Origin: Zobellia barbeyronii
GTDB taxonomy: Bacteria; Bacteroidota; Bacteroidia; Flavobacteriales; Flavobacteriaceae
DNA: 64,000 nt
Assembly (NCBI RefSeq): GCF_018603515.1
Contig: NZ_JACATN010000001.1
Coordinates: 434,001 to 498,000 of the forward strand
Reading direction: 5' to 3'
In this document: piece after piece, positions 1,536-55,243 of the stretch
Position numbering within the stretch: position 1 is the first letter of the stretch
Layout of the letters: each line of letters opens with the position of its first letter
Program-made: the position numbers and the translations under genes
The notes under the pieces: generated by a model
What the model saw: only the letters and a program-made list of their open reading frames with translations
The model's database searches: none
Told to the model about the DNA's origin: nothing

Positions 1536-1656
1536 CAATAAAATTCGCCTATAAGTTTCAAGGAACAAATTAGTTATGTGAACCAGTATACATTACCTTT
1601 TTATTTTCGAATAAACTAGTTACACTTAAAATTTTATAATCAACAAAACCAATACA

Positions 1657-2055: not shown

Positions 2056-2078
2056 AACAAAATCTGCACCCTCAGAAA

Positions 2079-2579: not shown

Positions 2580-2580
2580 C

Positions 2581-37321: not shown

Positions 37322-38971
37322 TTAGAATATCAAATAAGTACTCAGTACCAAAGCTGTGATGGCTGCTCCTGCTATAAAAGCATATTTCCATGGCTCAACA
37401 CTTACAGCATCTGTAGTCATCGGCTCGTAATCTGTATCCCTTGGATAAAGTTTTCCGATTACCAACATAATGATAATGTTCAAAACAAACAAGATAGCCA
37501 TTACATGTAAAAAGTGTGGATAGGCTTCTGCCTGTATCACACTCAAAGCTTTAGCTTCAGTTATTCCGTTCTGGGCAGCCTCAGCAAGCGCATTGTCCAC
37601 ATAATAAGGCTTGATAATAAACTGACTTATAGAATACAGGACAACCCCTGAAATTACGCCAATCTTAGCGGCTATTGCTGGCACACGTTTCGTAAAGAAG
37701 CCAATAACAATTACAGTTAGAATAGGAATACTATAACAACCATTTGCTTCTTGCAACCAAGCAAAAAGACCTTGTGGAGCATTAGCAATCAAAGGTGCTA
37801 CGCACATCCCTAAAATACCAAGCACAAGACCAAATACCTTACCTGCCTTCACAGTTTCTAATTCAGTAGCTGTCTTTTTAAAATATTGTCTGTAAAGGTC
37901 AAATCCGAATAAAGTAGCACTACTATTCAACAAACTATTGAACGAGCTTAGAATGGCACCAAAAAGTACCGCGGCAAAAAGACCTGTAAATGCAGCAGGA
38001 AGCACTGTGGCCACCAATTTAGGATAAGCTTGATCAGGATTATCTAATTTACCTTCAAAAATATGCCAAGCAATAATACCTGGTAATACTACAATTATTG
38101 GTATCAAAAATTTCACTAAAGCTGCTAGGATTACCCCTTTTTGACCCTCCTTTAAATTTTTTGCTCCAAAAACACGCTGTAAAATAACTTGGTTCGTACC
38201 CCAATAGAACATCTGTACAAGCATCATTCCCGTAAAAATAGTTCCAAAAGGTATAGAAGCATCTACATCTCCTTTTACATTAAATTTCTCAGGATGAGTT
38301 TCCCATAGAATAGATATTCCATCTGAAATACTCCCATCACCTATAGCCATTAGCCCAAAAACAGGAATAAGAAGCCCACCAATTAAAAGACCGATTGAAT
38401 TGATAAGGTCAGAAACCGCAACAGCCTTTAATCCGCCAAAGATTGCATAGATTATACCGATTGTACCAATACTCCAAACACAGAGCCACAACGTAGCTGT
38501 ATCGGAAAGTCCAAGGAGGCTAGGTAAATCAAACATTGTACTAAACGCCAGGGATCCTGAATACAATACCGAAGGAATCACCACAATTACATAACCGGAC
38601 AAGAATAAAGCCGTAAGAATAGCTTTTGTACCATGATCGAATCTATCTTCCACAAATTGCGGAATCGTTGTTATACCACCTCTCATGTATCTAGGAAGAA
38701 GGAATACAGCAGTTATAATCATTGCTATAGCCGCCAATGTTTCCCAAGCCATTACCAAAACACCTTCGGTAAACGCTTGTCCGTTCAACCCCACAATCTG
38801 CTCTGCAGAAAGGTTGGTCAAAAGCAACGAACCAGCAATTGTAATTGCCCCTAGGCTTCTCCCGGCTAGAAAATAACCGTCAGCAGAATTTTCATTGGTA
38901 CTTCTTGTAGCATACCAAGCGATAACGGCTACTAAAAGTGTAAAACCTACAAAAGAAACTATTGAGAGCAT
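37322..38971 (-). CDS. Sodium:solute symporter (SSS/SLC5 family)
   Basis: Inner-membrane transporter of 549 residues with about 13-14 hydrophobic segments. The SSS hallmark YFLAGRSLGAITIAGSLLLTN (first helices) and the region GGLKAVAVSDLINSIGLL identify the family, which couples Na+ to uptake of sugars, amino acids or vitamins. It follows the GH36 and acetyltransferase genes on the same strand (gap of 48 bases to the latter), so a sugar or oligosaccharide cargo, such as a galactoside, is the natural inference. It is the last gene of that unit. Confidence 0.88.
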   Translation of the reverse strand: MLSIVSFVGFTLLVAVIAWYATRSTNENSADGYFLAGRSLGAITIAGSLLLTNLSAEQIVGLNGQAFTEGVLVMAWETLAAIAMIITAVFLLPRYMRGGITTIPQFVEDRFDHGTKAILTALFLSGYVIVVIPSVLYSGSLAFSTMFDLPSLLGLSDTATLWLCVWSIGTIGIIYAIFGGLKAVAVSDLINSIGLLIGGLLIPVFGLMAIGDGSISDGISILWETHPEKFNVKGDVDASIPFGTIFTGMMLVQMFYWGTNQVILQRVFGAKNLKEGQKGVILAALVKFLIPIIVVLPGIIAWHIFEGKLDNPDQAYPKLVATVLPAAFTGLFAAVLFGAILSSFNSLLNSSATLFGFDLYRQYFKKTATELETVKAGKVFGLVLGILGMCVAPLIANAPQGLFAWLQEANGCYSIPILTVIVIGFFTKRVPAIAAKIGVISGVVLYSISQFIIKPYYVDNALAEAAQNGITEAKALSVIQAEAYPHFLHVMAILFVLNIIIMLVIGKLYPRDTDYEPMTTDAVSVEPWKYAFIAGAAITALVLSTYLIF

Positions 38972-39019: not shown

Positions 39020-39577
39020 TCAGTTATCAATTTTCTTTAATACGCGGCACGGATTGCCTACAGCGACTACATTTTCAGGAATATCCTTAACAACGACACT
39101 ACCGGAACCGATAACGCTGTTGTTTCCGATAGTAACTCCAGGGTTAACGATTACCCCACCACCAATCCAAACGTTATCTCCTATCCGGATAGGTTTTGCA
39201 TATTCAATACCTGAGTTTCTTGCTTCAAATTCTAGAGGATGCGTGGCCGTTAGCAGTTTTACACCTGGTGCCATCATCACATTCTTACCGATATATACTG
39301 GTGCGGCATCCAAAATAATACAATCAAAATTAGCATACGAGTTTTCACCCCAATAAATATTGAAGCCATAATCACACGTAAAACGATTTTCGATGTAAAA
39401 ATTCTTACCAGTCTCGGCAAATAGTTCTTTAAAAAAATGTTTGCGTTGCCGTTCTTTGTCCATAGGTATAGACTCAATTTCACGCATCAATCTTCTTGCA
39501 TTTAACCTTACCCTAACCAATTCTTTATCATTGGGATTATAGGGTTCCCCGCTAATCATTTTTTCTTTTTCGGTCAT
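39020..39577 (-). CDS. Maltose/galactoside O-acetyltransferase-like protein
   Basis: A 185-residue left-handed beta-helix acetyltransferase of the Maa/LacA group, which transfers acetyl from acetyl-CoA to a sugar hydroxyl. The N-terminal MISGEPYNPNDKELVRVR is the Maa-type cap, then the hexapeptide turns VWIGGGVIVNPGVTIGNN and VVVKDIPENVVAVGNP. The His acting as base is expected in TATHPL near residue 110. It is encoded between the GH36 enzyme (10 bases upstream) and the symporter, and may detoxify or tag non-metabolised sugars as LacA is proposed to. Confidence 0.88.
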   Translation of the reverse strand: MTEKEKMISGEPYNPNDKELVRVRLNARRLMREIESIPMDKERQRKHFFKELFAETGKNFYIENRFTCDYGFNIYWGENSYANFDCIILDAAPVYIGKNVMMAPGVKLLTATHPLEFEARNSGIEYAKPIRIGDNVWIGGGVIVNPGVTIGNNSVIGSGSVVVKDIPENVVAVGNPCRVLKKIDN

Positions 39578-39587
39578 TTGATGTCTA

Positions 39588-41357
39588 CTATATTTTCTCG
39601 GCTCTTATAATTCCACAAGCAGGAACCTCTATCTCGAGTACACCTTTCGAAAATACTACATTATCCTCCCTTATCAAACTTCCTTGGCAATCATAGATTT
39701 TACAGCGGTAAGCTCCTAAATCTTTGGTGCTTCGGACGATAATTTGATCCGCAATTTGACCATTTAAGATATCTATAAGTTTATGCGCTTCATTAAGCTC
39801 AGTAACCCAAGCATCATAAACACCAATAATTACCTGCCCATTCTTAGATACCCTTTCTGTGGGATAGTTGGCAAGAGGTTTAGAAGGAAGAAAATCGCCG
39901 TTCATAAGAACATCTGCATTTTCATTCCAGTACTTGGTGTAAAACCCGATCATATTTAAATATTCCTTAGGTGTATCACTTAACATTACCGAAAGTTGAG
40001 GAACACCAAAAAGCGTATTAATGACTTGAAGTGCCGCAATTTCCAATGGTTCATCTGCATGCCAAGTCACCATATCTGAATGTACAGCCGTATTACCCGC
40101 AAGCATACGGATATCTGCTATTCGCAATCGGTTCATGGTAGCATCTCCCGGGCAATCAAAAGCCCGGAACATGTTTCCATATTTACGCATTGCCGGTCCA
40201 GTATATTTCTGTCTGAACTCGATAAAAATTTCGGGGTTAATTTCTGTTAAAGCATTTTTTACATCGGTCAACAATCTGTCAACAGCTCCGTTTATTGAAG
40301 CGTAATCCGCATCTGCCCCTAACTTAATAGGTGTGTCTTTATAGAATCTAAAGTCGTCTATAAAATCTAATTTAAAACCGTCTAAATTCCAGTCTTTAGC
40401 TGCATTTGTATAAATATCGATAAGGTATTGTCTTACATCTGGATACCGTGGGTCAAAAACAGGTGCCCATCTGTGGTCTTCTGTTAAGTATTTACCCTTA
40501 AAACGCTTGAAGGCCTTTGATTTTTCACCACAGAAAGGAACTGAATACCAAAGGGCTACTTTCATACCCGTTTCGTGAACACTTTTTACGAATTCTGCCA
40601 TTTTAGGAATACGATCCGGCTGCCAATCGCCCGTAAAATCATATCCTCTATTTGTATCAAACGTTTGCCAACCATCATCAATGATGATAGCTTCGTAACC
40701 TAAATTTTTCGCCAATCTACACTCTTTTAAAAGTAACGATACATCAAGATTTTGATGAAATTGATACCAAGTAGAGTACAATGGCTTTTTTGCAATAGCA
40801 GGAACATATGCCGGCTTTAGTTCCTCAAAGGTTTCCCACCAAGAAGACACAGCCCTTAGGCTATCTGAAAAATGCCTGTTTTGGTTATCCAGTCGTAATT
40901 GGACTTTGAAATTTTTTAGTGGATAATGCTGTTCCGTAAAAAATGTAATATGGCAATAAAAACAATTGTCCTCTTCACGTAAACGAGCGTTCATTTCCAA
41001 TTTATTGATAGCATTGGAACAAGCAAAAGTTAAAACATTCTCATCGCTATTACCAAACAGAGAAATTACGGGAGAATCAATAGAAATTCTTGACTCCATA
41101 TTATCTAATTCCCAGTCTGCCTGAATACGTTTATTGAAGTCCGTAGTAGGTTTCCAAACACCCTTTACATTTACTGCCGGAACCTTCCATTGTAATGTAA
41201 TTGGCTTAGGAATTATTTGTTCGTCACTTGTTACTTCAAAATTGTAGATAACCGTACCATCATGGTCATGTACTTTTTTAAGGGAGGTTCGTAAATTTTG
41301 CTTTGCTCCTGTTATAGTTATCTCGGGATTTGCTTTAGTGGTCTTATTTACAATCAT
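39588..41357 (-). CDS. GH36-family glycoside hydrolase (alpha-galactosidase-like)
   Basis: Cytoplasmic enzyme of 589 residues, no signal peptide. The TIM-barrel has IIDDGWQTFD near residue 225, the predicted nucleophile Asp in KLDFIDD near residue 325, and the acid/base region RAFDCPGDATMNRLR around residue 400. The N-terminal beta domain is shorter than in 720-residue classic GH36 enzymes. Alpha-galactosidase or a related alpha-glycosidase activity is likely. It heads an operon with the acetyltransferase and symporter. Its promoter region shares a 32-base block with that of susC (41484-41515), so the two units are probably co-regulated. Confidence 0.85.
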   Translation of the reverse strand: MIVNKTTKANPEITITGAKQNLRTSLKKVHDHDGTVIYNFEVTSDEQIIPKPITLQWKVPAVNVKGVWKPTTDFNKRIQADWELDNMESRISIDSPVISLFGNSDENVLTFACSNAINKLEMNARLREEDNCFYCHITFFTEQHYPLKNFKVQLRLDNQNRHFSDSLRAVSSWWETFEELKPAYVPAIAKKPLYSTWYQFHQNLDVSLLLKECRLAKNLGYEAIIIDDGWQTFDTNRGYDFTGDWQPDRIPKMAEFVKSVHETGMKVALWYSVPFCGEKSKAFKRFKGKYLTEDHRWAPVFDPRYPDVRQYLIDIYTNAAKDWNLDGFKLDFIDDFRFYKDTPIKLGADADYASINGAVDRLLTDVKNALTEINPEIFIEFRQKYTGPAMRKYGNMFRAFDCPGDATMNRLRIADIRMLAGNTAVHSDMVTWHADEPLEIAALQVINTLFGVPQLSVMLSDTPKEYLNMIGFYTKYWNENADVLMNGDFLPSKPLANYPTERVSKNGQVIIGVYDAWVTELNEAHKLIDILNGQIADQIIVRSTKDLGAYRCKIYDCQGSLIREDNVVFSKGVLEIEVPACGIIRAEKI

Positions 41358-41483: not shown

Positions 41484-41507
41484 ACTATGATATTCTATGC
41501 TACTATT
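41484..41507 (-). promoter_or_regulatory. Operator-like direct repeat at the GH36 promoter
   Basis: Two CTATG-type half-sites (CTATGATA at 41485 and CTATGCTA at 41495), ten bases apart, sit just downstream of the -7 box over the predicted transcription start. With the box, they form a 32-base block (41484-41515) that is 26/32 identical, without gaps, to 55187-55218 before susC. A likely regulator-binding site. Confidence 0.6.
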
Positions 41508-41537
41508 CAAATATACAGTGTATTCTAAATATCTCAA
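41508..41537 (-). promoter_or_regulatory. Promoter of the GH36 operon
   Basis: Minus-strand -7 box TATATTTG (41515-41508), 19-base spacer, -33 TTTG with its TTG at 41537-41535. A start near 41501 gives a leader of about 145 bases. Confidence 0.7.
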
Positions 41538-41831: not shown

Positions 41832-43154
41832 CTATTTATCAGATTTAATTTTCTTAATAATATAGCTACCTACTGCCTTACCTTGCTGAATCCCAAGTTC
41901 AATAGCCGGCCTGTAATGAATCCCCCCATATAAACGGCTAATGGCAGCTTCTTCAGCGGCTCCCCAAAAGGACTGAAAGCTTCTTGGAGGAAGACCGTAT
42001 GGCACTTCTGTAGCATCTACAAAAGAATAGTTCTCACCAAAGAGATGTGTAAGTACAGTTGCCGCAGCGCTAGAAGCAACACTATGACCAGAAGTATGTT
42101 CTGGAAAAGCAGGTGTTTGAAGAATAGGTTGCCAATCCTGGTCTATATACTGGTTTATATAGGTTTCAGGCCTGGTTAGACTACTCTTATACTTTTGATC
42201 CCAACAACTTATAAAGGCATCTGCAATAGTAACTCCTAACAATGACATGGTTTCAGCTGACTCTAATACACCAGCCTTTTGTTCATCTAATATTTGTGCA
42301 GCAATATGCATCCAATGCCCCCCAGGTGAAATTTGTTGTTGAAAATACATGACATGACCATTAGTAGTTGAAATATTAGGATTGCAATCCCAAAATTTGG
42401 CAACTTCTAATTTTGCAGAATCGATATTTTTAACCGTTTCGTATACTTCATTTGCTTCTTTATAGAATTTTGAAGATTCGGTACTATCAAATTGAGTTGG
42501 CAAACCAGGGTCGAATTGCCCAGCTGAGTCTAGTACGAACGGTTTTATTGTTCTCCAGTGCGGTTCAATAGCTTCCATGTAGTCAGGCGGAGTGGGTTTC
42601 CATCGACCGGGGTCATCTGAAATACTGAACCTTGGTAAAGCTGTTCTTCTCAAATATCCATCCTTGCTGGCACGAGCTAAAATTTCTTTCCCTAATTTTT
42701 CACCTAAAGAAACCGAGTTTTCATAGGTCTTCTTATCAATGCCAATTTCCTGAACGTCACTAAGCAATTCTTTCTGCATGTTGTCAATCAGCTCTAAATC
42801 AAAAACAAGTGATTTGGCTACATCAGTAAAAGCAACCAAAGAGGTTAATGGGTAATAATAGGCTTTGTTGGCTTCCGGCTTACTTAAATTATCTAAATCG
42901 TTTAATTGACCGCCTAAAGATTGTTTTGAGTCATCTTGAAAACGTATTCCTTCGTATGCTGCGATATTGGCATAAGCATAGATTCTACTAGCCACAGGTG
43001 GAGTGAATATGTCAGCAACTATTACATCAGTAAGTTTTCGATTGTAGGTCGAAATACTTCCTTCAAAATAAGCGTCAAGGCCTTCTTGATTATGATTCGG
43101 CCCACAAGCTGATATTACTATTAGAACAAAAAGTAGAAGACTACTTAACTTCAT
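41832..43154 (-). CDS. Vanadium-dependent haloperoxidase-like PAP2 lipoprotein
   Basis: A 440-residue lipoprotein (signal peptide ending LIVISACG, Cys17) with a haloperoxidase/PAP2 fold. The vanadate- or phosphate-binding residues lie in KYKSSLTRP (K-x6-RP, near 320), PEHTSGHS (near 356) and SRLYGGIHYRPAIELG (near 403). The last motif has the SR-x5-H of haloperoxidases but lacks the Asp three residues later that PAP2 phosphatases use. Known relatives oxidise halides with peroxide or hydrolyse phosphate; neither is proven here. Its start overlaps the end of the VCBS gene by 14 bases, implying coupling. A start at 43190 is possible but would spoil the signal peptide. Confidence 0.85.
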   Translation of the reverse strand: MKLSSLLLFVLIVISACGPNHNQEGLDAYFEGSISTYNRKLTDVIVADIFTPPVASRIYAYANIAAYEGIRFQDDSKQSLGGQLNDLDNLSKPEANKAYYYPLTSLVAFTDVAKSLVFDLELIDNMQKELLSDVQEIGIDKKTYENSVSLGEKLGKEILARASKDGYLRRTALPRFSISDDPGRWKPTPPDYMEAIEPHWRTIKPFVLDSAGQFDPGLPTQFDSTESSKFYKEANEVYETVKNIDSAKLEVAKFWDCNPNISTTNGHVMYFQQQISPGGHWMHIAAQILDEQKAGVLESAETMSLLGVTIADAFISCWDQKYKSSLTRPETYINQYIDQDWQPILQTPAFPEHTSGHSVASSAAATVLTHLFGENYSFVDATEVPYGLPPRSFQSFWGAAEEAAISRLYGGIHYRPAIELGIQQGKAVGSYIIKKIKSDK

Positions 43155-46100
43155 TTTTATTAAAAACTGTTTTTGTTTTTCCCGATGCATCAGTAAATAT
43201 TATTTCTTTTATTTTATTTTGTATTTGAATACTTCTAGAACTATTTGACAGATAGCCTGAACCATAATAGAATTCCTTTCTTACTTTTTTTCCATTTTCG
43301 TAAAAGATTTCTGCAAATAGCGTTTCTTTTTCTGCATTAATAATTTCAATGCTTTCTTCAGGAGTATTTGTAGTGAAAATCTTTAAAGGTCCATTATTAT
43401 TGGCAACAATTATTTGTAATTCTCCTTTGCCATTACGGATGCTAGCTAAGCCACTTCCATCAAAATCATTTATGAAACCACTTTCTTTGAGAGAGAGTGT
43501 TTCAAAACTACCATCACCCTTTCCCTTTAGAACTAATCCTTTTAAAGCATCATATCTTCCTGTAGCTACATCAGTTGAGTAGGAGTTGCCAGTTAAAATC
43601 ACATCTTCATTACCATCTTGATTAAAATCTTCAATAACAATTCCTTCAATAGGAGCCATTTGAGCAGCTATTGGTAAATCACTTATCTTAAAGCTACCAT
43701 TTCCTAAGTTTTCTACATAGCTACTAGCGAAGTTATGACTTTTCACAACGTACGCATTTTCTAATTCTTCTGGAAGAAATGATTTCTCAAAAGGAGTTTC
43801 TGCGTATGATTTATAGGTTTTAAAACGGGATCGCATAGCACTTATTTGACTAATAAGCTCATCTCGAGAATGAGCAATATAGTTTTCGCCATCATTATAA
43901 TAACACATTATTGGATCTATGCGACCATCTTTGTCATAGTCGTTAGCATAAATGGATAGCGGTTCATTTTCTGAAGCCTTGAATTTATTGTTTAACCCTT
44001 GATTACCAATAATATAGTCAATGTCTCCATCGCCATCAAAATCACCTCCGTTAATACTATTCCACCAACCTTCTGTTTTCTGGAGTCCTATTGTATTTGT
44101 AGCACGTATTAACTTGCCATTCTCATTATGAAAAAATTCCACTTGCATGAATTCACCCACAACAATTAAGTCACTCCATCCATCGGAATCATAATCGGTC
44201 CAAAGTGCTGAGGTTACCATAGTTAGTTTATCCCAATCACTAATTTGATTACTGATATCTCTAAACTTAAGATTCTCTGCATCTTCATTGGATAAATTCT
44301 CCAAGAGATAACTTTTAACAGGCATAGGATATTTACCAGGATTTACACGACCACCTACGAACAAATCTAAATCACCGTCATGGTCAAAATCAACCGCGTT
44401 TACCGTTGATCCACTTATTTTGATTTGTGGCAAGGCATCTGATTTGGAAAATTTTCCAGAACCGTCATTGAGGTAAAGTCTGTCTTGATAAATAAAATCC
44501 TCAGTTAAAAGTACTCCGCCACTTACAATATAAAGATCAAGATAGCCATCATTATTGGCATCAAAGAAAAGGCTACCCAAATCCTCTTTACTTACATCAA
44601 AGGGAATAGTGGATTTACTAAAAGTAGCATCTTTATTTTGAACGAAAAATTCTCCAAATTGACCAGAACCACCACCCACATAAAAATCTTCTAGACCATC
44701 AGCATTATAATCCCCAACAGCTATACCGGGGCCATTTCTTGATGTCATATGTGGTAAAATGGGCTGAATTTTGAAATCAATCATACCATCTTCGATATGA
44801 CTAAAGTCAATTTTTGACTTTTCAGTTGTTGACGTAAACCAAGCTTTATCTTGGCTGATTGTCTCTTTGCTTTCTAAAGTAACTTGATCAGTTTGTTTTA
44901 TAAGTAACTGTTGATCCGCTTTAATACCTGTTAAGTTTTGATAACTATTGTCTGGCCACCAAATTTCAATTCGCTCAACGACATCTTCTTTCCCTAATCC
45001 GAAATGAAGTATAGGATCTGTACTAGATTCATAGCCCCTACTCAAGAAATTTTCCTCAAACTGTGTACTGGTTTTTGTGGTTATTTTAACCTTGGCTCCA
45101 ATACCTTGAAGATTTCCTTGTTTTCCTACTAACTGTATTCTAAGATAATGATTTATGGTATCGTTCAGAGTTCTATTTTCATAAACAAAAGCAGGTTGAT
45201 TAACATTATTAACTACCAAGTCTAAATCACCATCATTGTCTAAATCAGCATATGCAGCACCATTTGAGCAGCTTGCATCTACTATTCCCCAATCTTCGGA
45301 AGTGTCTTCAAAAGTTGTATTGCCAGAATTACGATATGAATAATTCACCAGTTTAGCTGGAGGTAATTCTTGAATAGATTTTAATTTTTGATTGATTTTC
45401 GCTTCTCGCTCACCAAGTGGATTGTCGTATATGTTTTGATAGTGAATGTAGTCAAGGTTTCCTAAATCCCTCAAAAATCCATTTGTAATATAAATATCTT
45501 TATACCCATCGTTGTCATAGTCAGCAAGAAGCGTACTCCAGCTCCAATCAGTACTGCTTATACCAGCCATATTTCCAATTTCACTAAACTCACCTTCACC
45601 CATATTTAGCTGCATGGTATTTCTGCTGTACTGTGCCTGATAACCAGCATTGAGCATCATTTGAAAGCGGTCATAACCGGTAGATGAAATAATCAGTTTT
45701 TGTCGTTCATTATCTTCTGGTCTCATGTCGAGAACCATTATATCAGGTTTACCGTTATTATCAATGTCTGAAATACCGTTACCCATACCGGCGTAAGATG
45801 TATGGTTCATGTTTTCTGTAATCTCATCTTTAAAAGTGCCGTCGCCTTTATTTATGTATAGGATATCATTACCAACAAAATCATTTGAAATATAAATATC
45901 TGGCCAAGAATCATTATTGATATCTGATATAGCAACACCTAAGCCGTAACCTTCTACTAAAATCCCAGCTTCTAGAGATACATCTGTAAATTTTCCATTG
46001 CCTTCGTTTCGATAAAGTCGGTCATTACTTATTGATTTTCCATCTAGTTTTCTAGGATTACTGGAATTCACTTGATGTTCATAAGCAGCAGGGTTAACCA

Positions 46101-46671
46101 ATAAGTACAAGTCTAAATCACCATCCTTGTCATAATCAAAAAATGCTGAATGCATGGATTGCCTTGTGTCTGCAAGACCGTATTCTTTTGCTTTTTCAGT
46201 AAAAGTAATTTCACCTGAATTTGACGAAGGGCCATTATTGATGTAAAGTAGGTTGGCACGTTTTGATTCTTCGGCTCCGCCAGAAACTGCTATATAAATA
46301 TCTAGAAAACCATCTTGATTGATATCAATCATTGATGCTCCAGTGCCCCAACTATTATTCAAAAGACCGGCCTTTTCAGAAAAATCTTCAAATTTTAAAT
46401 CGCCTTTATTTAGATATAATCGCCCTGAAACCATGTTACCACTAAAATAGACATCAGTTAAGCCATCATTGTTCACATCACCTACAGCAACTCCAGCTCC
46501 CGTATAAATATTCATGTATTTAAATACATTAATACTGTCATTTTCTGTAATAAGGTTATTGAAATCTATTCCTGTATCAGACGGATTCAATAATTTAAAA
46601 CGCTTCGGCTTTTCGGTTTCACAAGAGGTCAAAAGAACTACACTTGCCAATAGAAGTATTAGATTTCTCAT
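43141..46671 (-). CDS. VCBS/FG-GAP repeat lipoprotein with UnbV domain (second copy)
   Basis: A 1,176-residue lipoprotein (LLTSCETE, Cys17). Residues 40-500 carry a row of calcium-binding FG-GAP blades such as DINQDGFLDIYI and DYDKDGDLDLYL. Residues 520-600 match the ASPIC/UnbV domain (GIGAKVKI, SRGYESS, HFGLGKEDVVERIEIWWPD). A second FG-GAP propeller runs from about 650 to 900, with YDKDGRIDPIMCYYND and a conserved AMRSRF block. It looks like a surface-exposed beta-propeller for binding or display. It overlaps its paralog upstream by four bases (46668-46671). Confidence 0.88.
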   Translation of the reverse strand: MRNLILLLASVVLLTSCETEKPKRFKLLNPSDTGIDFNNLITENDSINVFKYMNIYTGAGVAVGDVNNDGLTDVYFSGNMVSGRLYLNKGDLKFEDFSEKAGLLNNSWGTGASMIDINQDGFLDIYIAVSGGAEESKRANLLYINNGPSSNSGEITFTEKAKEYGLADTRQSMHSAFFDYDKDGDLDLYLLVNPAAYEHQVNSSNPRKLDGKSISNDRLYRNEGNGKFTDVSLEAGILVEGYGLGVAISDINNDSWPDIYISNDFVGNDILYINKGDGTFKDEITENMNHTSYAGMGNGISDIDNNGKPDIMVLDMRPEDNERQKLIISSTGYDRFQMMLNAGYQAQYSRNTMQLNMGEGEFSEIGNMAGISSTDWSWSTLLADYDNDGYKDIYITNGFLRDLGNLDYIHYQNIYDNPLGEREAKINQKLKSIQELPPAKLVNYSYRNSGNTTFEDTSEDWGIVDASCSNGAAYADLDNDGDLDLVVNNVNQPAFVYENRTLNDTINHYLRIQLVGKQGNLQGIGAKVKITTKTSTQFEENFLSRGYESSTDPILHFGLGKEDVVERIEIWWPDNSYQNLTGIKADQQLLIKQTDQVTLESKETISQDKAWFTSTTEKSKIDFSHIEDGMIDFKIQPILPHMTSRNGPGIAVGDYNADGLEDFYVGGGSGQFGEFFVQNKDATFSKSTIPFDVSKEDLGSLFFDANNDGYLDLYIVSGGVLLTEDFIYQDRLYLNDGSGKFSKSDALPQIKISGSTVNAVDFDHDGDLDLFVGGRVNPGKYPMPVKSYLLENLSNEDAENLKFRDISNQISDWDKLTMVTSALWTDYDSDGWSDLIVVGEFMQVEFFHNENGKLIRATNTIGLQKTEGWWNSINGGDFDGDGDIDYIIGNQGLNNKFKASENEPLSIYANDYDKDGRIDPIMCYYNDGENYIAHSRDELISQISAMRSRFKTYKSYAETPFEKSFLPEELENAYVVKSHNFASSYVENLGNGSFKISDLPIAAQMAPIEGIVIEDFNQDGNEDVILTGNSYSTDVATGRYDALKGLVLKGKGDGSFETLSLKESGFINDFDGSGLASIRNGKGELQIIVANNNGPLKIFTTNTPEESIEIINAEKETLFAEIFYENGKKVRKEFYYGSGYLSNSSRSIQIQNKIKEIIFTDASGKTKTVFNKNEVK

Positions 46672-49600
46672 TGAACGGTAAGGATTTCGGTAGCGTTACC
46701 TTCAGAATCTAGTATTCTAACGGAAATAACGTTCTGTGGGATAACTAGTTTACGACTACCCTGCGATAAATACCCGGTTCCATAATAAAATTCTATCTTT
46801 TGTTTTTTACCGTTTGCGTATTCAATGAGTGCATAGGCATCTTTGTTTTTAGGCGAATATACCTTTTGCGCCTTGCTTAGCTTTTTATGAACTTTAAGGT
46901 TGCCATCATTTACACTAGAAATAATCAACTCATCGTTTGCTGTAAACAAGTTAACTTGTCCTTTTGCATCTGCCTGAACAAAGAAGCCACTTTTATCAAC
47001 ATTAACTGAATTGAAGTGACCCGTACCGTTACCTTCAAGTAATGTTCCTATGGAAGCGTCATACCGACCCGCGAAAGTTTCGCCACTATAAAAATTACCA
47101 ATAGCCAAAACGTCCAAATTGCCATCGTCATTAAAATCACTAATTGTGGTACTGTATATAGGAGCAATTTGAGATGTTCTTGGGAGATTGCTAATTTTAA
47201 ATTTGCCTCCGCCTGTATTTTCTAAGTAAGCATTCGCAAAAGTTTCGCTTTTAACTACATACGCATTCTCTATTTCTTCTTTAGTGAATGATTCTTCAAA
47301 TGTAGCTTTTGAATAATCTTCAAATGTTCTGAATCGCCCACGCATAGCATTGATTTGGTCGATGAGGTCACTTCTTGAGTGAGCTACGTAGTTTTTACCG
47401 TTGTTGTAATAACACATTACAGGGTCAATTCTTCCATTTTTGTCATAATCGCTTGCATAAATGCATAAAGGTTCTTTAGCATTTGCTTTATACCGACTAT
47501 TAAGTCCTAAATTACCTAGGATATAGTCAGTGTCACCGTCATTATCAAAATCACCTGCATTGATACTGTTCCACCAGCCATGGGTGTTTTTTAACCCTGT
47601 TTCACTGGTCACTTCTTTTAATTTACCTAAATCGTTTTGAAAGAAGCGGATTGCCATAAACTCACCTACAACGATAAGATCAAGCCAAGAATCGTTATTA
47701 AAATCAGTCCACAACGAAGCCGTCACCATGCCAAGATTGGAAAATGTTTTGGAAATAGGTTGATTATCTTTTTCAAATTTAATATTGCTGGGAGTGCTTT
47801 CATTTTTTAATAATACACTTTCAGGAGCCATAGGGTATTCCCAAGGACGTAATCTGCCACCAACGAAAAGGTCTAAGTCACCATCCTTATCATAGTCTGC
47901 GGCGTTTACGGTAGCGCCACTAATATTTAATTCAGGAAGTACATTGGTTTTAGTAAATGACCCAGAACCATCATTTTTATAGAAACGGTCTTGGTATAAG
48001 GTGTCTCCAGTTTCATGCGATGAACCACCGCTTACTATATACAAATCTTGGTCACCATCTGAATCAGCATCAAAAAATAATGCTCCCATGTCTTCGTATA
48101 ATTTATCTTGGAGGGGAGTTTCTTTAAAAGTCCCGTCATTTTGTTGAATTTTTAGCACTCCTACTTGTCCAGCTGCACCTCCTATGAAAACATCTTCCAA
48201 CTCATCTCCATTAACATCAGCAACAGCCATTCCAGGTCCGTTTTTTGAGTGCATATGGGGTAATAGGGGTTGAACTTTATAATCTACAAACTCATTTTCT
48301 TGATGTTTGAAATCTAGACCAATACTGTCGATTTCTTGAAATAATGTCGGACTACTATCTTTTACACGTTTTATTAATTCAGATGCATCCTTTTGATGTA
48401 AAGTGATTTCTTGATTTACAGGTACATCTTTCAAAATTTGCTGAAGACCATTAGGCCAAGTTACCTGTACACTATCTATTACATTTATATTGCCTATACC
48501 AAAGTGAACAGATTGCTCAACAGTTGATAAGTATCCTCTATATGGGGTAAAGTATTGTTTTTGTAATTGTCCGTCGTAAAATAGCTCAACTTGACTTCCT
48601 AAGCCTTCAAGGTTGGGTGCTTCTCCTTGGAATTTAAATTTTATATAATGTTTATTTTCGCCAATGTTGGTATTGTTTTTTAAAATGCTAGCGTGCTCGT
48701 CAATATTATTTATCACCAAATCTAAATCACCATCATTGTCTAAGTCGGCATAAGCCATGCCACTTGAATAAGTAGGCGTATTAAAGCCTGCCTCTTCAGA
48801 CATGTCGTCAAAAGTAAAATCACCTTTGTTTTTGTAGAGGTAATTTTGCTTCTTAATGCCAGGTAATTTGCCTAGTGCTTTTATACGTTCTTTTCTATTG
48901 GCCTCTTCGGTACCCATGGTTAAAATTCGGTTACCATATACCATAAAATCCAAATTGGTAATATCTTGTCTGTAGCCATTGGTAATGCACAAATCCTTTA
49001 AGCCGTCATGGTCATAATCGAATAGTAAGGCACTCCAACTCCATTCTGTTCCAGAGATACCAGCAATCTGGCCTACCTCGCTAAAGGATCCATTTCCATT
49101 ATTTAGCTGTAGCGTATTCCGAATATATTGGGGTTGATACCCGTCTTTAATACTTTTTTCAAATACATCATAGCGATTTCCTGCCATAGTAAGTTTCCAT
49201 CGCTCGTTATCCGGAGGCAGCATATCTAAAACTATAACGTCCATATTTCCATCGTTATTAATATCCCCGATATCATGACCCATTCCATTATAGGTTAGAT
49301 GTTTGAAATATTTCTTGTTTTCATTTTTAAAAGTTCCATTTTGTTGATTGATATATAATAGGTCATCCGTAAGAAAATCATTGGATACATATACATCAGG
49401 CCATCCATCGGTATTAATATCACAGATTTCAACACCTAGACCAAAGCCTTCTATTAAAATTCCTGAATCGGCTGAAACATCTGTAAAAGTTTGGTCACCG
49501 TTATTGCGATATAGTTTATCTACCGAAGGTGATTTACCAGATCTATCTTTTGGTCGTGATACGTTACGGTTATAATCTACTAAGTCATTACTTAAGACAT

Positions 49601-50180
49601 ACAAGTCTAAATCACCGTCAGAATCATAATCAAAGAAAGCAGATTGTACTGAATAGCCAGTATCTGCTATACCCCAAATTGCTGCTTTTTCTTCAAACTC
49701 TATCTTTCCCGTCTCCTTTGTTTTATTAATAAACAATAGGTTTTGTCTTTCGTTCGCTTTCGAGCTTCTTGGTCCACCTTTACTAATATAAATATCCTTG
49801 TAGCCATCTTGGTTAATGTCTACTATTGCAACTCCGTTAGACCAATAAGATGATCCGGATTTAGAAGATTCAGTAATGTCATCAAATTTAAAATCACCTA
49901 AATTTTTATACAATCGATTACTGTTCATATTGCCGATGAAATAGATGTCTTGTAAACCGTCGTTGTCAAAATCAGCAGTTGCAACTCCAGCACCGTTATA
50001 CATGTATTCAAAGTCTAATACACTTAGGCTTTCCGAGTATGTTAAATTGTTTGAAAAAGTAACACCTGTGTTATCAGGGTTCAATGCTTCGAACAAACTA
50101 TTGTTGTTATTGCATGAAACGAATAATACAATGATTGAAAACAAGAAATACGGGAGCTTCCCTTTGAATTTATAGTGCAT
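46668..50180 (-). CDS. VCBS/FG-GAP repeat lipoprotein with UnbV domain (first copy)
   Basis: A 1,170-residue lipoprotein (LFVSCNNNN, Cys23), paralogous over its whole length to the next gene. The same order is seen: FG-GAP blades with Dx-DxDG-type calcium loops (DFDNDGLQDIYF, DYDSDGDLDLYV), a UnbV domain at about 520-600 (GLGSQVEL, YRGYLSTVEQSVHFGIG), then a second propeller with YDKNGRIDPVMCYYNN. The family is common next to SusCD in Bacteroidota and has no proven ligand; a surface binding role like that of SusE/F is a guess. It starts 105 bases after susD, across a perfect 14-bp hairpin. Confidence 0.88.
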   Translation of the reverse strand: MHYKFKGKLPYFLFSIIVLFVSCNNNNSLFEALNPDNTGVTFSNNLTYSESLSVLDFEYMYNGAGVATADFDNDGLQDIYFIGNMNSNRLYKNLGDFKFDDITESSKSGSSYWSNGVAIVDINQDGYKDIYISKGGPRSSKANERQNLLFINKTKETGKIEFEEKAAIWGIADTGYSVQSAFFDYDSDGDLDLYVLSNDLVDYNRNVSRPKDRSGKSPSVDKLYRNNGDQTFTDVSADSGILIEGFGLGVEICDINTDGWPDVYVSNDFLTDDLLYINQQNGTFKNENKKYFKHLTYNGMGHDIGDINNDGNMDVIVLDMLPPDNERWKLTMAGNRYDVFEKSIKDGYQPQYIRNTLQLNNGNGSFSEVGQIAGISGTEWSWSALLFDYDHDGLKDLCITNGYRQDITNLDFMVYGNRILTMGTEEANRKERIKALGKLPGIKKQNYLYKNKGDFTFDDMSEEAGFNTPTYSSGMAYADLDNDGDLDLVINNIDEHASILKNNTNIGENKHYIKFKFQGEAPNLEGLGSQVELFYDGQLQKQYFTPYRGYLSTVEQSVHFGIGNINVIDSVQVTWPNGLQQILKDVPVNQEITLHQKDASELIKRVKDSSPTLFQEIDSIGLDFKHQENEFVDYKVQPLLPHMHSKNGPGMAVADVNGDELEDVFIGGAAGQVGVLKIQQNDGTFKETPLQDKLYEDMGALFFDADSDGDQDLYIVSGGSSHETGDTLYQDRFYKNDGSGSFTKTNVLPELNISGATVNAADYDKDGDLDLFVGGRLRPWEYPMAPESVLLKNESTPSNIKFEKDNQPISKTFSNLGMVTASLWTDFNNDSWLDLIVVGEFMAIRFFQNDLGKLKEVTSETGLKNTHGWWNSINAGDFDNDGDTDYILGNLGLNSRYKANAKEPLCIYASDYDKNGRIDPVMCYYNNGKNYVAHSRSDLIDQINAMRGRFRTFEDYSKATFEESFTKEEIENAYVVKSETFANAYLENTGGGKFKISNLPRTSQIAPIYSTTISDFNDDGNLDVLAIGNFYSGETFAGRYDASIGTLLEGNGTGHFNSVNVDKSGFFVQADAKGQVNLFTANDELIISSVNDGNLKVHKKLSKAQKVYSPKNKDAYALIEYANGKKQKIEFYYGTGYLSQGSRKLVIPQNVISVRILDSEGNATEILTVQ

Positions 50181-50285: not shown

Positions 50286-51824
50286 TTAGTAACCTGCATT
50301 CTGGGTCATAAGACCTCCTGAACGATCTATTTCAGAAAGAGGAAAAGGAAATACCTCAAGTTTTGGATCCCAAGAAGAACCAAAGATAGTTGGACCTAAA
50401 TCCCATCTTACAATATCAAACCAACGGTGTGGTTCAAACGCCATTTCAACTCTCTTTTCTTGCATCATTGCTGCTAAAGGGTCTGAATTCATGGGAGCAG
50501 TTAAACCCGCTCTATCTCTAATATCCTGAATCTGTTGAACCGCGATACTAACATCACCACCTCCTCTAATCAAGGCTTCAGCATATAGTAATTTCAATTC
50601 AGCAAATCTAAACCAACGCTCGTTATTGAAATCGCCAACACCATTTGGCGAATAATTAGCCGCAACCATATTAGTTTCACCACGATACTTCTTAATTGAA
50701 AGACTATTAGACGACCAAATAGGATCATAGTCTAATACATTTAGAACTCCACCAGGACTCAATTTATAATAAGTTTCCCCTGGTTGGTAAATACTGGCTT
50801 CCAATCTTGTATCTCCTGGCTCAAAAGCATCAACTAAATCTTGTGTTGGAATAAACCAACCTTGCGCTTGTGCAGGAGCACCATTTGCCGGATCCCAATA
50901 CCATGCTCTACCTGAACCTTGTGACCCCTTGAAATTTTCACTGTGATTGTCATCAAAAACCCAAATATTATCATCAGAGAATGGTCCACCATACTGGATT
51001 TCAAAAATAGATTCTGAATTATTTTCGTTGTTATAAGCAAAAACATCATCGTAAGAAGATGTCACAAGGCTATAAGGTCCGTTATCAACAACATCACCTA
51101 TTGCAGTTATTGCCGCTGGCCAATCTTCTTTAAATACATTTACCTTACCAATAAAAGACTTAGCTGCCCATGCGGTAGCTCTTCCTGTATTACCTCCATC
51201 CCATACTTCCGGTAAACCAGCTGCAGCATCAGAAAAATCAGCAAGAATTTGAGCATATAACTCCCCAGCACCCGCATTTGGAAGTGCTAAATTATTTAAA
51301 TCTTTACCTACAGCAATAGCAATGGGAGAGGTTTCACCAAAAAGCTTTAAGGCTTGAAAATGGTAAAATGCTCTTAAAAACTTGGCTTCAGCAGATAGAA
51401 CAGTTTTGTCTTCTGCTGTTAACTCGTTCTCAGCATCTAAATTTTCAAGTACAATATTAGCTCTGTAAATACCTTCATAAATTTCACCGAACACAGCTTG
51501 AAAAGCTACATCAACAGAGGTCACCTGGAGATTATCTGCAGCTCGAGTTCTTGTATCTCCAGAGTTGGCATCTACTTCAGCATCATCGGTAATAATCATT
51601 GAGATTTTCCAATATTCTCCTGTTTCCCCAAGAGTCTCGGTACTTGTACCGTAAAAATCTTGGAGTGAAGAATAAGACGAAAATATTGCTCCATCAAAAT
51701 CGGCCCTAGTTTTGTAAAATGTGTTGGGGGTCACCCTGTCAAGGGGAGCTAAGTCAAGCTCGTCCGCACATGAATAGAAGCCAAAAATAGCCACTAAAAA
51801 AATATAAAAATTTGTTTTTTTCAT
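50286..51824 (-). CDS. SusD/RagB-like nutrient-binding outer-membrane lipoprotein
   Basis: A 512-residue lipoprotein that forms the lid on its SusC partner and binds the substrate outside the cell. The signal peptide ends GFYSC (Cys19) followed by ADELDLAPLDRVTP, typical of SusD with an acidic surface signal. The helical TPR region has AEAKFLRAFYHFQALKLFG, and the C-terminus has RFAELKLLYAEALIRGG and EKRVEMAFEPHRWFDIVRW. It starts 44 bases after the susC stop. The start at 51824 drops two extra codons before MKK. Ligand specificity cannot be read. Confidence 0.95.
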   Translation of the reverse strand: MKKTNFYIFLVAIFGFYSCADELDLAPLDRVTPNTFYKTRADFDGAIFSSYSSLQDFYGTSTETLGETGEYWKISMIITDDAEVDANSGDTRTRAADNLQVTSVDVAFQAVFGEIYEGIYRANIVLENLDAENELTAEDKTVLSAEAKFLRAFYHFQALKLFGETSPIAIAVGKDLNNLALPNAGAGELYAQILADFSDAAAGLPEVWDGGNTGRATAWAAKSFIGKVNVFKEDWPAAITAIGDVVDNGPYSLVTSSYDDVFAYNNENNSESIFEIQYGGPFSDDNIWVFDDNHSENFKGSQGSGRAWYWDPANGAPAQAQGWFIPTQDLVDAFEPGDTRLEASIYQPGETYYKLSPGGVLNVLDYDPIWSSNSLSIKKYRGETNMVAANYSPNGVGDFNNERWFRFAELKLLYAEALIRGGGDVSIAVQQIQDIRDRAGLTAPMNSDPLAAMMQEKRVEMAFEPHRWFDIVRWDLGPTIFGSSWDPKLEVFPFPLSEIDRSGGLMTQNAGY

Positions 51825-51867
51825 GATCAAGTATTTTTTGATTAAATAAAATTTAATAATCTTTTAT

Positions 51868-54800
51868 TTAAAAGTTTACTGTTAAACCAAGTTGGAAAGT
51901 CCTTGGCGCTGGGCCAGTTCCTCCGTCTTGACCGGTTGCAAGTGCATTAGCTCCTTTTTGGAAACTCTGAGCTCGTGTAACTTCAGGATCCCAACCTAGA
52001 TAGCTTGTGAAAGTTGCAAGGTTTTGAGCTCCAACATATACTCGAAGTCCGTTAACAAAACCACCTGACCAAGTTTCTAGCTTATCGCCTGGCAGGCTAT
52101 ATCCAATTTGGAGATTTTGAATACGTAAATAATCCGCATCCTCAATCCAACGATCTGAATAACGATTATTTCCGTTAGGATCATCAAGGGTTAATCTAGG
52201 AATATCGTTACTTGTTCCTTCACCTGTCCATCGGTCTAAAACACGAGCACTAAAGTTATTAGTACTACTAAGGTCTTCTCTTGCACTACGAGCTGAATTA
52301 TAAACTTGATAATCCCCAACACCTCTAAGCACTAATGAAAAATCGAAGTCTTTATAATTGGCATTAAAATTCATCCCATAAAAATAACCAGGTATCGGAC
52401 TACCCAAAATTGTTCTGTCATCTGGTGAAATCTCACCATCTCCATTTACATCAACAAAACGAATATCTCCCGCCTCTGCTCCAATTGATCCAGCATCTGT
52501 TAGTGCACCTGCAGCTTCGTTAGCATTTTGATAAAGACCATTGGTCTTATAACCATAAAAATGTCCAAGGCTTTCACCAACAACAGTACGGTGCGTTTGA
52601 GCCCCACCAATACCAGAATTAATAGAAGTTACATCACCTAAATCCGTCACTTCATTTTTAACAGTAGTTATGTTTGCTCCTATACTATATGTGAAATTGT
52701 CTCCTACTTCTCCTCGGTAGTCAATAGCGAATTCAATACCAGAATTTTTAATGGATCCTAGGTTAGAATCAGCACCATAAAATATACCAGAAACAGATGG
52801 CAATGGAACGGCAAGTAAAACATCATCACTCTCTTTATTGTAATAATCTGCAGTTATAGACATTCTACCTTGTAACAGACTTGCATCTATACCAATGTCA
52901 AATTGAGTACTTGTTTCCCAGCCAAGAGCTGCATTAGCAAACCTTGTAGGAGCAGGAGCTCTAACCACATTTTGATCATCGCCAATTACATAAAATATGT
53001 TGCCTTCAAGCGCTGGTAAATATGGAAAACTGTCTGGTGTTTGTTGGTTTCCTAATTGTCCCCAACCTGCACGTATTTTTAAATCATTTACCACGCCGTC
53101 TGCATTAAAGAATTCTTCAGATGAAATTCTCCAACCTAATGAAGCAGAAGGAAAAACACCTGATCTGTTATCTTCGGCAAAACGAGAACTTGCGTCTCTT
53201 CTAAAGTTTATGGTAGCAAGATATTTACCTTCAAAGTCATAATTAACACGACCTAGTAAACCTTGAATTGTCCAAAGGTCAGCTTCTTGAGTTCCTGTCG
53301 AATTAAGACTTGTAGTTGCAAAATTAGGGTTGAATAAATCTGTACCCTGAACTCTAATTTTATCAAACGTAAATTTTGTCTGCTCAAAACCAACTAAGGC
53401 AGAAAGGTTATGTGACTCTCCAAAAGTTTTATCATAACTTAAGGTTGCACCTGTTGTAAGTGTAAATTGTTTCGTAAGGTTTTGCACTCTTAATGATTGT
53501 CTACCGCCTGTCCCATTAAAATCGGCAGGTGTTTGATTAAAAAGACCCTCACCTGTAATATGGTCAACACCTACAGAAGCTCTTGCTTTTAAACCTTTGG
53601 CTATTTCTAATTCTCCATAAAAGTTACCAAGTACTTGGCGCACCTCAATAGTTGTATAGTTCACTCTGGCATCATTTCTCCATAACGTATTTTGAGAACC
53701 ATTACCTGCGCCTATATTTTCAACGGACTCAATGTTATAACCAAATGGGCCTGATGCATCAAATGGAGCATAATACGGAGCATTTCGTAATGATATACCG
53801 GCAGAGTTAACCCCACCACCTTCAGGTTGAACTTGTCTGTCAGAATGACTAATAGCCAATGATTGTCCAAATTTTAAACGTTTACCTACTTTAAAATCAG
53901 AATTTGCCTTTAGAGAATATCGTTCGAAAGCCTGAGATTGTTCAATACCTTCTTGATCTAAATACCCACCAGAAATATAATAGTTTGCATTATCATTACC
54001 TCCACTAGCACTTAAGTTGTGACTTTGAACAAAACCGGTTTTAAAAAACTCGTTTTGCCAGTCAACATCTGCATTATTAGCAAAACCTGAGTAATCACGT
54101 CCAAGTTGACTTTGAATATCAATGTATTCAGAAACATTTAATACATCAATTTTTTCTCTTAACTCACTAAAAGCGGTATACCCACTATAGGTCATTTTAC
54201 CAATACCACTTTTACCACGTTTTGTGGTTACAATTATAACACCATTGGCACCTCTTGCTCCATAAATAGCTGCAGAAGCTGCATCTTTAAGCACTGTTAT
54301 AGACTCAATATCATTTGGGTTTAAGCTAGCCAAAGGGTTAGAATCTGTAGTTGAAGAAGTATTTACTGTAATGTTGGTTGTTTGAACTAATGGAATACCA
54401 TCAATTACCCATAACGGATCATTATTCCCTGGAGAGCCAACACCACGAATACGAACGTTTATTGGAGCTGCTGGATCACCACTACGATTGGCGATGTTCA
54501 CACCAGCAATAGTTCCCGCCAATGCTTGGTCAGGACTAGTCAACGGTTTTGTGCCAATTTCATCGGCTCCAATTGAACCTACAGCGCCAGTTAGATTTCC
54601 TTTTTTCTGCGTTCCATAACCTACAACAACAACCTCGGTTAGAGCCTGCGCATCTTCAGATAAGACAACATTAATCGTGGTTCGGCCATCGATAGCCACT
54701 TCTTGTCTGGAGAATCCTACATAGGAAAACACCAAAGCAGAGCTACCTTCCGGCACCTCTATACTATAATTTCCATCAAAATCGGAAACACTTCCTACGG

Positions 54801-54969
54801 TTGTGCCTTTCACCAAGACATTTACACCAGGTAGAACACCTTGGTCGTCAGAAGTAGTACCTGAAATTGTGGTTTGTGCGCACAAAGATGCAACACTGAA
54901 GAAAAATAAGGCTGCGAGCACAAAACCATGTGATCGAACCCTATTTAATCTCTTAAAGTTCTGGTTCAT
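51868..54969 (-). CDS. SusC/RagA TonB-linked outer-membrane transporter
   Basis: A 1,033-residue TonB-dependent importer. Signal peptide (FFFSVASLCAQ), a carboxypeptidase-like beta domain (residues 35-110: GVLPGVNVLVKGTTVGSVSD), the TonB-box area EVVVVGYGTQKKGN, the plug with the SusC signature VIIVTTKRGKSG, and a beta-barrel ending in FQLGLTVNF. It imports the substrate bound by SusD across the outer membrane using TonB energy. It heads the operon with susD, two VCBS lipoproteins and a haloperoxidase-like protein. A leader of about 235 bases precedes it, with a shared operator-like repeat at the promoter. Confidence 0.97.
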   Translation of the reverse strand: MNQNFKRLNRVRSHGFVLAALFFFSVASLCAQTTISGTTSDDQGVLPGVNVLVKGTTVGSVSDFDGNYSIEVPEGSSALVFSYVGFSRQEVAIDGRTTINVVLSEDAQALTEVVVVGYGTQKKGNLTGAVGSIGADEIGTKPLTSPDQALAGTIAGVNIANRSGDPAAPINVRIRGVGSPGNNDPLWVIDGIPLVQTTNITVNTSSTTDSNPLASLNPNDIESITVLKDAASAAIYGARGANGVIIVTTKRGKSGIGKMTYSGYTAFSELREKIDVLNVSEYIDIQSQLGRDYSGFANNADVDWQNEFFKTGFVQSHNLSASGGNDNANYYISGGYLDQEGIEQSQAFERYSLKANSDFKVGKRLKFGQSLAISHSDRQVQPEGGGVNSAGISLRNAPYYAPFDASGPFGYNIESVENIGAGNGSQNTLWRNDARVNYTTIEVRQVLGNFYGELEIAKGLKARASVGVDHITGEGLFNQTPADFNGTGGRQSLRVQNLTKQFTLTTGATLSYDKTFGESHNLSALVGFEQTKFTFDKIRVQGTDLFNPNFATTSLNSTGTQEADLWTIQGLLGRVNYDFEGKYLATINFRRDASSRFAEDNRSGVFPSASLGWRISSEEFFNADGVVNDLKIRAGWGQLGNQQTPDSFPYLPALEGNIFYVIGDDQNVVRAPAPTRFANAALGWETSTQFDIGIDASLLQGRMSITADYYNKESDDVLLAVPLPSVSGIFYGADSNLGSIKNSGIEFAIDYRGEVGDNFTYSIGANITTVKNEVTDLGDVTSINSGIGGAQTHRTVVGESLGHFYGYKTNGLYQNANEAAGALTDAGSIGAEAGDIRFVDVNGDGEISPDDRTILGSPIPGYFYGMNFNANYKDFDFSLVLRGVGDYQVYNSARSAREDLSSTNNFSARVLDRWTGEGTSNDIPRLTLDDPNGNNRYSDRWIEDADYLRIQNLQIGYSLPGDKLETWSGGFVNGLRVYVGAQNLATFTSYLGWDPEVTRAQSFQKGANALATGQDGGTGPAPRTFQLGLTVNF

Positions 54970-55186: not shown

Positions 55187-55210
55187 ACTATGCTACTCTA
55201 TGCTATAAAT
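55187..55210 (-). promoter_or_regulatory. Operator-like direct repeat at the susC promoter
   Basis: Two perfect CTATGCTA half-sites (55188-55195 and 55198-55205) with a ten-base period, one DNA turn, cover the predicted transcription start just downstream of the -7 box. The same arrangement lies at the GH36 promoter (41484-41507). A repressor bound here would block initiation. Confidence 0.62.
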
Positions 55211-55243
55211 CAAAAATAATAATTTTTTTGACACGATAGACAA
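55211..55243 (-). promoter_or_regulatory. susC operon promoter
   Basis: Minus-strand -7 box TATTTTTG (55218-55211), 22-base spacer, -33 TTTTTG with its TTG at 55243-55241. The predicted start is near 55204. Confidence 0.65.

Follow-up and report, generated by a model that had tools for sequence, protein, structure and literature searches.

The window, by which we mean the whole 64,000-nucleotide stretch of Zobellia barbeyronii DNA that was analysed, contains two similar promoter blocks, one before a susC gene and one before a gene for a GH36-like glycosidase. The genes surrounding these blocks, from a GntR/LacI-type regulator through a sodium:solute symporter, all lie on the minus strand (Table 1). 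Pfam searches of the regulator identified an N-terminal GntR winged helix-turn-helix (PF00392, 39.4 bits, cut-off 27) and a C-terminal LacI/GalR-type sugar-binding domain (PF13377, 29.3 bits, cut-off 26.5), and its best Foldseek matches were LacI-family regulators. The adjacency of susC and susD places the locus among the SusCD-type polysaccharide/glycan utilisation loci. The PAP2-superfamily protein aligned over residues 17-448 with the haloperoxidase listed in Table 1 (434.6 bits), which makes it a putative haloperoxidase.

Table 1. Genes and promoter features of the regulator-susC-GH36 region in the window.
Feature	Coordinates	Strand	Remarks
GntR/LacI-type regulator, 337 aa	55350..56363	minus	GntR winged helix and Peripla_BP_3; proposed operator binder
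-7 box of susC	55211..55218	minus	TATTTTTG; ends 5 bases before the operator
Candidate operator before susC	55188..55205	minus	direct repeat TAGCATAG-AG-TAGCATAG; half-sites 55198-55205 and 55188-55195
SusC-type TonB-dependent outer-membrane transporter	51868..54969	minus	
SusD-type lipoprotein	50286..51830	minus	Pfam
FG-GAP/VCBS and UnbV_ASPIC protein 1	46668..50180	minus	
FG-GAP/VCBS and UnbV_ASPIC protein 2	43141..46671	minus	
PAP2-superfamily protein	41832..43190	minus	related to vanadium haloperoxidase PDB 4cit
-7 box of GH36-like gene	41508..41515	minus	TATATTTG; ends 5 bases before the repeat
Candidate operator before GH36-like gene	41485..41502	minus	TAGCATAG-AA-TATCATAG
GH36/GH31-clan glycosidase, predicted alpha-galactosidase	39588..41357	minus	
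Maltose/galactoside-type O-acetyltransferase	39020..39577	minus	below NCBIfam cut-offs for either type
Sodium:solute symporter	37322..38971	minus	related to sodium/glucose cotransporters (SGLT)

The GH36-like protein scored 25.1 bits against the Pfam Melibiase model, below the cut-off of 27, and 24.1 bits against the GH31 barrel (cut-off 23.5). Foldseek searches with its structure model, which is of low confidence (mean pLDDT 63.7), returned alpha-galactosidases, several of them titled GH36, and an alpha-galactosaminidase as the top matches, followed by GH31 enzymes. The DDGW and KLD motifs, which we take to mark the galactose site and the nucleophile of GH36 enzymes, were invariant in 12 sequences. 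Judged from its sequence and this model, the protein is predicted to be an alpha-galactosidase that would hydrolyse alpha-galactosides.

The initial annotation had described the two minus-strand blocks (55187-55218 and 41484-41515) as aligning without gaps with 26 of 32 bases identical, and re-alignment returned the identical count; their 18-base cores, which are the candidate operators of Table 1, agreed at 16 of 18 positions. The features it had read within the blocks were likewise recovered, namely a -7 box in each, an equal distance from box to repeat in both, measured here as 5 bases, and, before susC, two identical half-sites ten bases apart, each TAGCATAG (CTATGCTA on the opposite strand). 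Its view that chance would rarely give such a match also held, since dinucleotide shuffling of both promoter regions (350 and 474 nt) gave best ungapped 32-base matches with a mean of 21.2 and a maximum of 24, and 26 or more was reached in 0 of 300 shuffled pairs. A chance likeness of the two blocks was rejected on these shuffles, a test that the comparative data then superseded. The core consensus is the direct repeat TAGCATAG-NN-TA[G/T]CATAG, placed 5 bases past a -7 box of the form TAnnTTTG.

In the 64-kb window the pattern TAGCATAG-NN-TA[G/T]CA[C/T]AG, with two or fewer mismatches, occurred at the susC and GH36 sites only. The annotation had also proposed a search of the genome, and in its 4.98 Mb the annotation's 18-base pattern had the two blocks as its sole exact matches, with six further matches at two mismatches. 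One of these six (L003) was the promoter of the glycerol kinase gene. Three lay within long reading frames (L004, L006, L008) and another within the start of the frame of a predicted secreted protein (L007), and these four were treated as chance. The remaining, weaker site (L005) lay in the gap before a gene of 366 amino acids; in two Zobellia (L005, L213), such a weaker site precedes this conserved, secreted-looking protein.

Conservation was studied in a footprint set of 13 loci, the window's own and 12 orthologous ones (8 from Zobellia and 4 from other genera), whose GntR proteins were 54-96% identical. The site was found at all 11 of the susC promoters present in this set, with 14 to 17 of the 17 specified positions matching, and at 10 of 13 GH36 promoters; in the three loci with no site there, GH36 lies 152-363 nt behind susD. 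The conservation at orthologous promoters on which the initial annotation had made its proposal depend was therefore observed for both genes. Orthologues of the regulator were present in 33 of 397 genomes of the family, the last orthologue scoring 402 bits and the next relative 269. An intergenic site was present in each of 25 further GntR loci. These were compared with the plain repeat word (one mismatch in 19, two in 4 and three in 2), the refined pattern having been made after the first loci.

A third, named set comprised the best 80 of 191 GntR relatives, in partial overlap with the other genome set, and included Zobellia, Maribacter, Aquimarina, Croceitalea, Muricauda and relatives, Dokdonia and Poritiphilus. 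Within 700 nt of GntR, a site with two or fewer mismatches was found in 71 of these 80 flavobacterial loci (59 exact, 11 with one mismatch and 1 with two), while the reversed pattern gave 0 of 80 at the same threshold. Nine loci had no near site. Seven of the nine were convergent loci in which the susC operon points towards GntR, an orientation that puts the susC promoter outside the 10-kb flank. Each of these seven genomes had two exact sites, which lay at the two divergent promoters, that of susC and that of GH36; this indicates that the site follows the promoters and not the GntR gene. In the eighth (L255) a contig end lies close to GntR, and a separate susC contig of the same genome carried a one-mismatch site (L311). 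In the ninth (L281) the site was absent both nearby and from the whole genome. All these loci share descent, so the locus counts are not independent trials.

Several loci departed from the arrangement in the window. A Zobellia locus with no susCD-VCBS-haloperoxidase genes (genome G002; L039, L091) had an exact site at another SusC gene, whose product is 37% identical to that of the window, about 734 kb from GntR. Five loci of the divergent type (L165, L166, L170-L172) kept GntR, the operator, susCD, VCBS and PAP2, and GH36 was not seen within the stretch read; their PAP2 proteins are 27-30% identical to that of the window and belong to the same regulon. Upstream of the window's own GntR gene no site was found, the best candidate having six mismatches, and autoregulation of GntR in the window was dropped.

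The pattern was also specific on the scale of whole genomes. In 38 genomes with this GntR there were 76 matches with at most one mismatch, against 13 for the reversed pattern, and 46 of the matches, in 28 of the 38 genomes, were exact. Occurrence at many unrelated promoters, which the annotation had named as evidence against its proposal, was not seen, as all 46 exact matches could be placed: promoters of GntR loci accounted for 34, glpK for 8, a TetR unit for 3 and the distant susC of G002 for 1. In 38 genomes lacking this GntR (9 with a GH36 relative and 4 less than 90% complete) there were 0 exact matches, and 7 one-mismatch matches against 10 for the reversed pattern. The site of G352 was missed in this search because it differs from the refined pattern at two positions.

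Fourteen out-of-locus matches with at most one mismatch were inspected; three were at glpK, three at glpD and one at the TetR unit, and the other seven had no plausible target. Other out-of-locus matches were within reading frames (L092, L101) or in a gap whose target was not recognised (L093), and those read from the genomes of the exceptional loci lay in coding sequence (L295, L303), at susC (L311) or at glpK (L312-L314). The weak near-matches of G025, G026 and G033 were either in reading frames (L096-L098) or in gaps with no recognised target (L099, L100). A one-mismatch site at position 2259 of L206 (G168), 30 nt before a lipoprotein gene whose product resembles, by eye, a gliding-motility lipoprotein, is probably due to chance.

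None of ten GH36 loci with no orthologous GntR adjacent (L155-L164) had an intergenic site. Four of them were not counted as controls, namely L155 and L156, which are part of GntR divergons, L161, whose genome has its GntR on another contig, and L162, where the GH36 gene is the second one in a genome that has GntR; among the six valid controls (L157-L160, L163, L164) the site was found in 0. In two of these loci (L158 and L163) the GH36 relative (45% and 40%, respectively) stands beside a GntR/LacI protein of another group (33% and 36%), and the operator is absent.

The position and form of the site were analysed at 70 near sites with at most one mismatch. A -7 box with at most one mismatch ended 4-7 nt, mostly 5, before the repeat at all 70, and 61 of the boxes were exact TAnnTTTG and 9 had one mismatch. 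With the box test moved 15 to 75 nt upstream (seven places), boxes were found at 0-22 of the 70 sites, with 0-3 exact, and shifting it downstream (five places) gave 1-6 of 70, with 0-2 exact. The DNA farther from the site and box was poorly conserved. From the position of the box, the repeat would cover the transcription start. Read as a direct repeat at a distance of 10, the 70 sites averaged 6.99 of 8 matches, compared with 5.07 of 8 for the best inverted arrangement, a comparison that favours the direct repeat because the sites had been selected by the repeat pattern; the palindrome reading was set aside as the weaker of the two. At the glpK promoters of all nine Zobellia, the repeat was again directly past the box and its orientation was reversed. 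The TetR sites and some glpD sites, as judged by eye, lay before and not after the likely -7 box, so that a single simple geometry fails for some promoters.

The genes joined to the site beyond susC and GH36 concern glycerol and galactose. The glpK promoter carried the site in the nine Zobellia and in G105, G406, G425, G426 and G431 (in L210, L312 and L313 the mechanical frame begins ahead of the probable start of glpK and extends over the site), and glpD carried it in G116, G241 and G370. In other genera, the operon itself holds GH36, the symporter, glpK and glpD (L049, L050, L134, L137-L139), and L140 has a frame that opens with glpK and is truncated where the stretch ends. In L142 a 1055-aa frame that fuses glpK and glpD (1182-4349, minus strand) follows the GH36-symporter genes. 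In six loci, galK and/or galT stand in the place of glpK/glpD (L131, named by Pfam, and L133, L136, L146, L150 and L151, identified by eye from the opening residues), and among the 80 named loci galK was in the flanks of 18 and galT in those of 13.

A site upstream of a TetR gene was also seen in four Zobellia (G001, G003, G004 and G007; L088, L089, L090 and L211). In L088 and L090 the TetR gene is followed by genes for GAPDH and galactose mutarotase (Pfam for L088), and in L088-L090 the site appears by eye to lie before a -7-like box.

A sister group of more distant GntR/LacI proteins has a direct repeat with a different word, CTAC[C/T]AGT-NN-CTAC[C/T]AGT, at an unchanged period of 10 bp. This word was read off L022-L029 and L031 and tested on 20 other loci (L322-L341). 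In 18 of them it occurred upstream of the regulator gene with three or fewer mismatches, compared with 0 of 400 shuffles; galK was within 3.1 kb in 11 of the 20. The recognition helix differs in line with the operator words, residue 56 being K in 101 of 105 window-group sequences, a sample in which some genomes were counted in two sets, and D in all 29 sister-group sequences. That the sister group has its own 10-bp repeat suggests that head-to-tail operators may be a subfamily rule in Flavobacteriia. In the same genome as the window, two paralogous GntR/LacI loci have further candidate 10-bp direct repeats between genes, at about 2870-2890 of L052 and about 6400-6440 of L053, with the words CCGTACTA and TCCTGTAC.

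Based on these comparisons, which establish the conservation of the operator, its place past the -7 box, its linkage to GntR and the gene content of the regulon at the level of sequence, the best explanation of the whole is that the shared block combines a core promoter with an operator at which the adjacent GntR/LacI-type repressor binds, and that this operator joins a scattered regulon for a galactosyl-glycerol; we give this reading a probability of about 0.78. In the operator, TAGCATAG would occur twice, head to tail, at an interval of one helical turn. The pair would lie over the start expected from the -7 box, and this position favours repression by blocking of the start site. We infer that the repressor, when bound there, would keep RNA polymerase from the promoter, and that a sugar in its LacI-like domain, either the substrate or a product, would release it.

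Three units would be controlled in this way: susC-susD-VCBS-VCBS-haloperoxidase; the GH36-like alpha-galactosidase, O-acetyltransferase and SGLT-like symporter; and, elsewhere on the chromosome, glycerol kinase. The proposal of the initial annotation that one regulator, probably the adjacent GntR protein, controls the first two units is supported by the conservation and specificity of the site and was too narrow; it missed the glycerol kinase, and hence the likely substrate, and the site fits a head-to-tail repeat better than a palindrome.

A galactosidase, a sugar symporter and glycerol and galactose kinases under one switch suggest that the substrate is a galactosyl-glycerol, which the products of the regulon would bind, import and split into galactose and glycerol. 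The scattered genes thus probably serve to import and split a compound of galactose and glycerol in seaweed-associated marine bacteria. The most likely substrate is floridoside or isofloridoside of red algae, and the GH36-like enzyme may be what splits floridoside. According to the available portion of PMC8703398, red algae use floridoside as a main storage carbohydrate, and a GH36 alpha-galactosidase is reported, in the available part of PMC8509150, to join galactose and glycerol into isofloridoside.

The most probable rival to this reading concerns the substrate. With the operator and GntR as proposed, the regulon might instead serve an algal galactolipid head group or a longer alpha-galactoside, the glycerol genes being co-regulated otherwise. 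For a molecule as small as floridoside, a SusCD pair with two large VCBS proteins and a haloperoxidase would seem an elaborate apparatus, GH36 was not seen in the five loci that retain GntR, susCD, VCBS and PAP2, and within the genus SusC varies more than GH36 or the symporter. What recurs, however, is the set of GH36-like enzyme, SGLT-like symporter and glycerol or galactose kinase; no lipase was recognised among the reading frames identified, and the isofloridoside synthesis cited above is catalysed by a GH36 alpha-galactosidase. We consider these other substrates somewhat unlikely. A different role for the regulator, as an activator or as a repressor at some promoters and an activator at others, is suggested by the TetR-unit site and the glpD site of L203, both of which, by eye, appear to be upstream of their -7-like box or promoter. 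The sites of susC, GH36 and glpK, by contrast, are downstream of the -7 box, where their position would be typical of a repressor, and we regard activation as unlikely.

The available text of two sources offers some ground for a binder other than GntR, such as an AraC-type hybrid two-component regulator (HTCS), in that the sites predicted for HTCS and SusR in Bacteroides take the form of direct repeats (PMC3878776) and GntR sites are mostly palindromes (PMC4494728). However, the HTCS repeats are on average 21 bp apart and those of SusR 67 or 77 bp (PMC3878776, same portion), compared with 10 here. The site moreover tracks GntR over the 80 named loci, exact matches were absent from the 38 genomes lacking this GntR, even though 9 of them have a GH36 relative, and the sister GntR group has a 10-bp direct repeat of its own before its own gene. 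An HTCS-type binder was rejected on the repeat spacing and the linkage to GntR, and any binder other than GntR is very unlikely. More improbable still is a block with no operator, which would be either a core promoter of variant form or an element conserved in the leader RNA. Such an element would form the 5' end of the transcript, and the repeat does abut the -7 box in 70 of 70 GntR-locus sites; yet it is reversed at the glpK promoters of the nine Zobellia, precedes the -7-like box, by eye, in the TetR unit and, among the matches listed, is found at a handful of promoters and not genome-wide. The reversed repeat at glpK and the upstream repeat at TetR fit DNA binding and not one RNA element, and the reversal at glpK led us to reject the RNA reading.

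If the repressor-operator reading of a galactosyl-glycerol regulon is correct, floridoside gains a predicted bacterial pathway of uptake and breakdown, together with its switch, that is testable in Zobellia, and the head-to-tail operator code for GntR/LacI chimeras would allow regulons to be predicted from sequence. We put at even odds a broader proposal with two parts: that a subfamily of these chimeras in Flavobacteriia follows a head-to-tail 10-bp operator rule in which a few residues of the recognition helix set a separate word for each group, and that the window's member governs a hitherto unrecognised floridoside regulon (outer-membrane import, alpha-galactosidase, sodium symporter and glycerol kinase, and in some species glycerol-3-phosphate dehydrogenase or Leloir genes), by which bacteria would break down what is the chief soluble carbon reserve in red algae. 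None of the titles and abstract openings listed from the open-licence literature, which was covered in part, described a bacterial pathway for floridoside or isofloridoside or the present regulon.

Several known systems resemble this one in part. In Zobellia galactanivorans, a repressor of alginate catabolism (Dudek et al. 2020, as cited in the part of PMC9296495 available) is likewise of the GntR family and controls an algal-sugar regulon in the same genus. Its sugar is alginate, compared with the galactoside proposed here. The alginate repressor is reportedly named AusR and is said to have a C-terminal domain of another type. The carrageenan regulon of Z. galactanivorans also has algal-sugar genes outside its main locus, and the regulator tested there, cgrA, belongs to the AraC family, unlike the GntR protein here (PMC5698469, main text, in which floridoside and GH36 have 0 occurrences). 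According to the available part of PMC3878776, FucR (BT1272) and ManR (BT2103) of Bacteroides thetaiotaomicron are GntR-family sugar regulators too, and the targets of ManR include a SusC/SusD unit, as in the window; the sugars of both differ from that of the present regulon. The HTCS and SusR operators described in the same portion have about 21 or 67/77 bp between direct repeats, and the distance here is 10 bp.

Within the GntR family, the accessible text of PMC4494728 describes NanR, NagQ, FarR and a MocR group as direct-repeat exceptions, as is the case here; these belong to the FadR, HutC and MocR subfamilies and have other C-terminal domains and other repeat words. AraR, the arabinose repressor of Bacillus subtilis and namesake of the AraR subfamily, is like the window regulator in joining a GntR winged helix to a LacI-type sugar-binding domain, and both are local regulators of sugar genes. 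AraR is described, in the same text, for Firmicutes, and its DNA complex serves there as the reference for palindromic GntR sites (PMC4494728). The operator of AraR is a palindrome and its genes are for arabinose, whereas the regulator of the window would recognise a 10-bp head-to-tail repeat, and its identified neighbours are genes for galactosides, glycerol and galactose.
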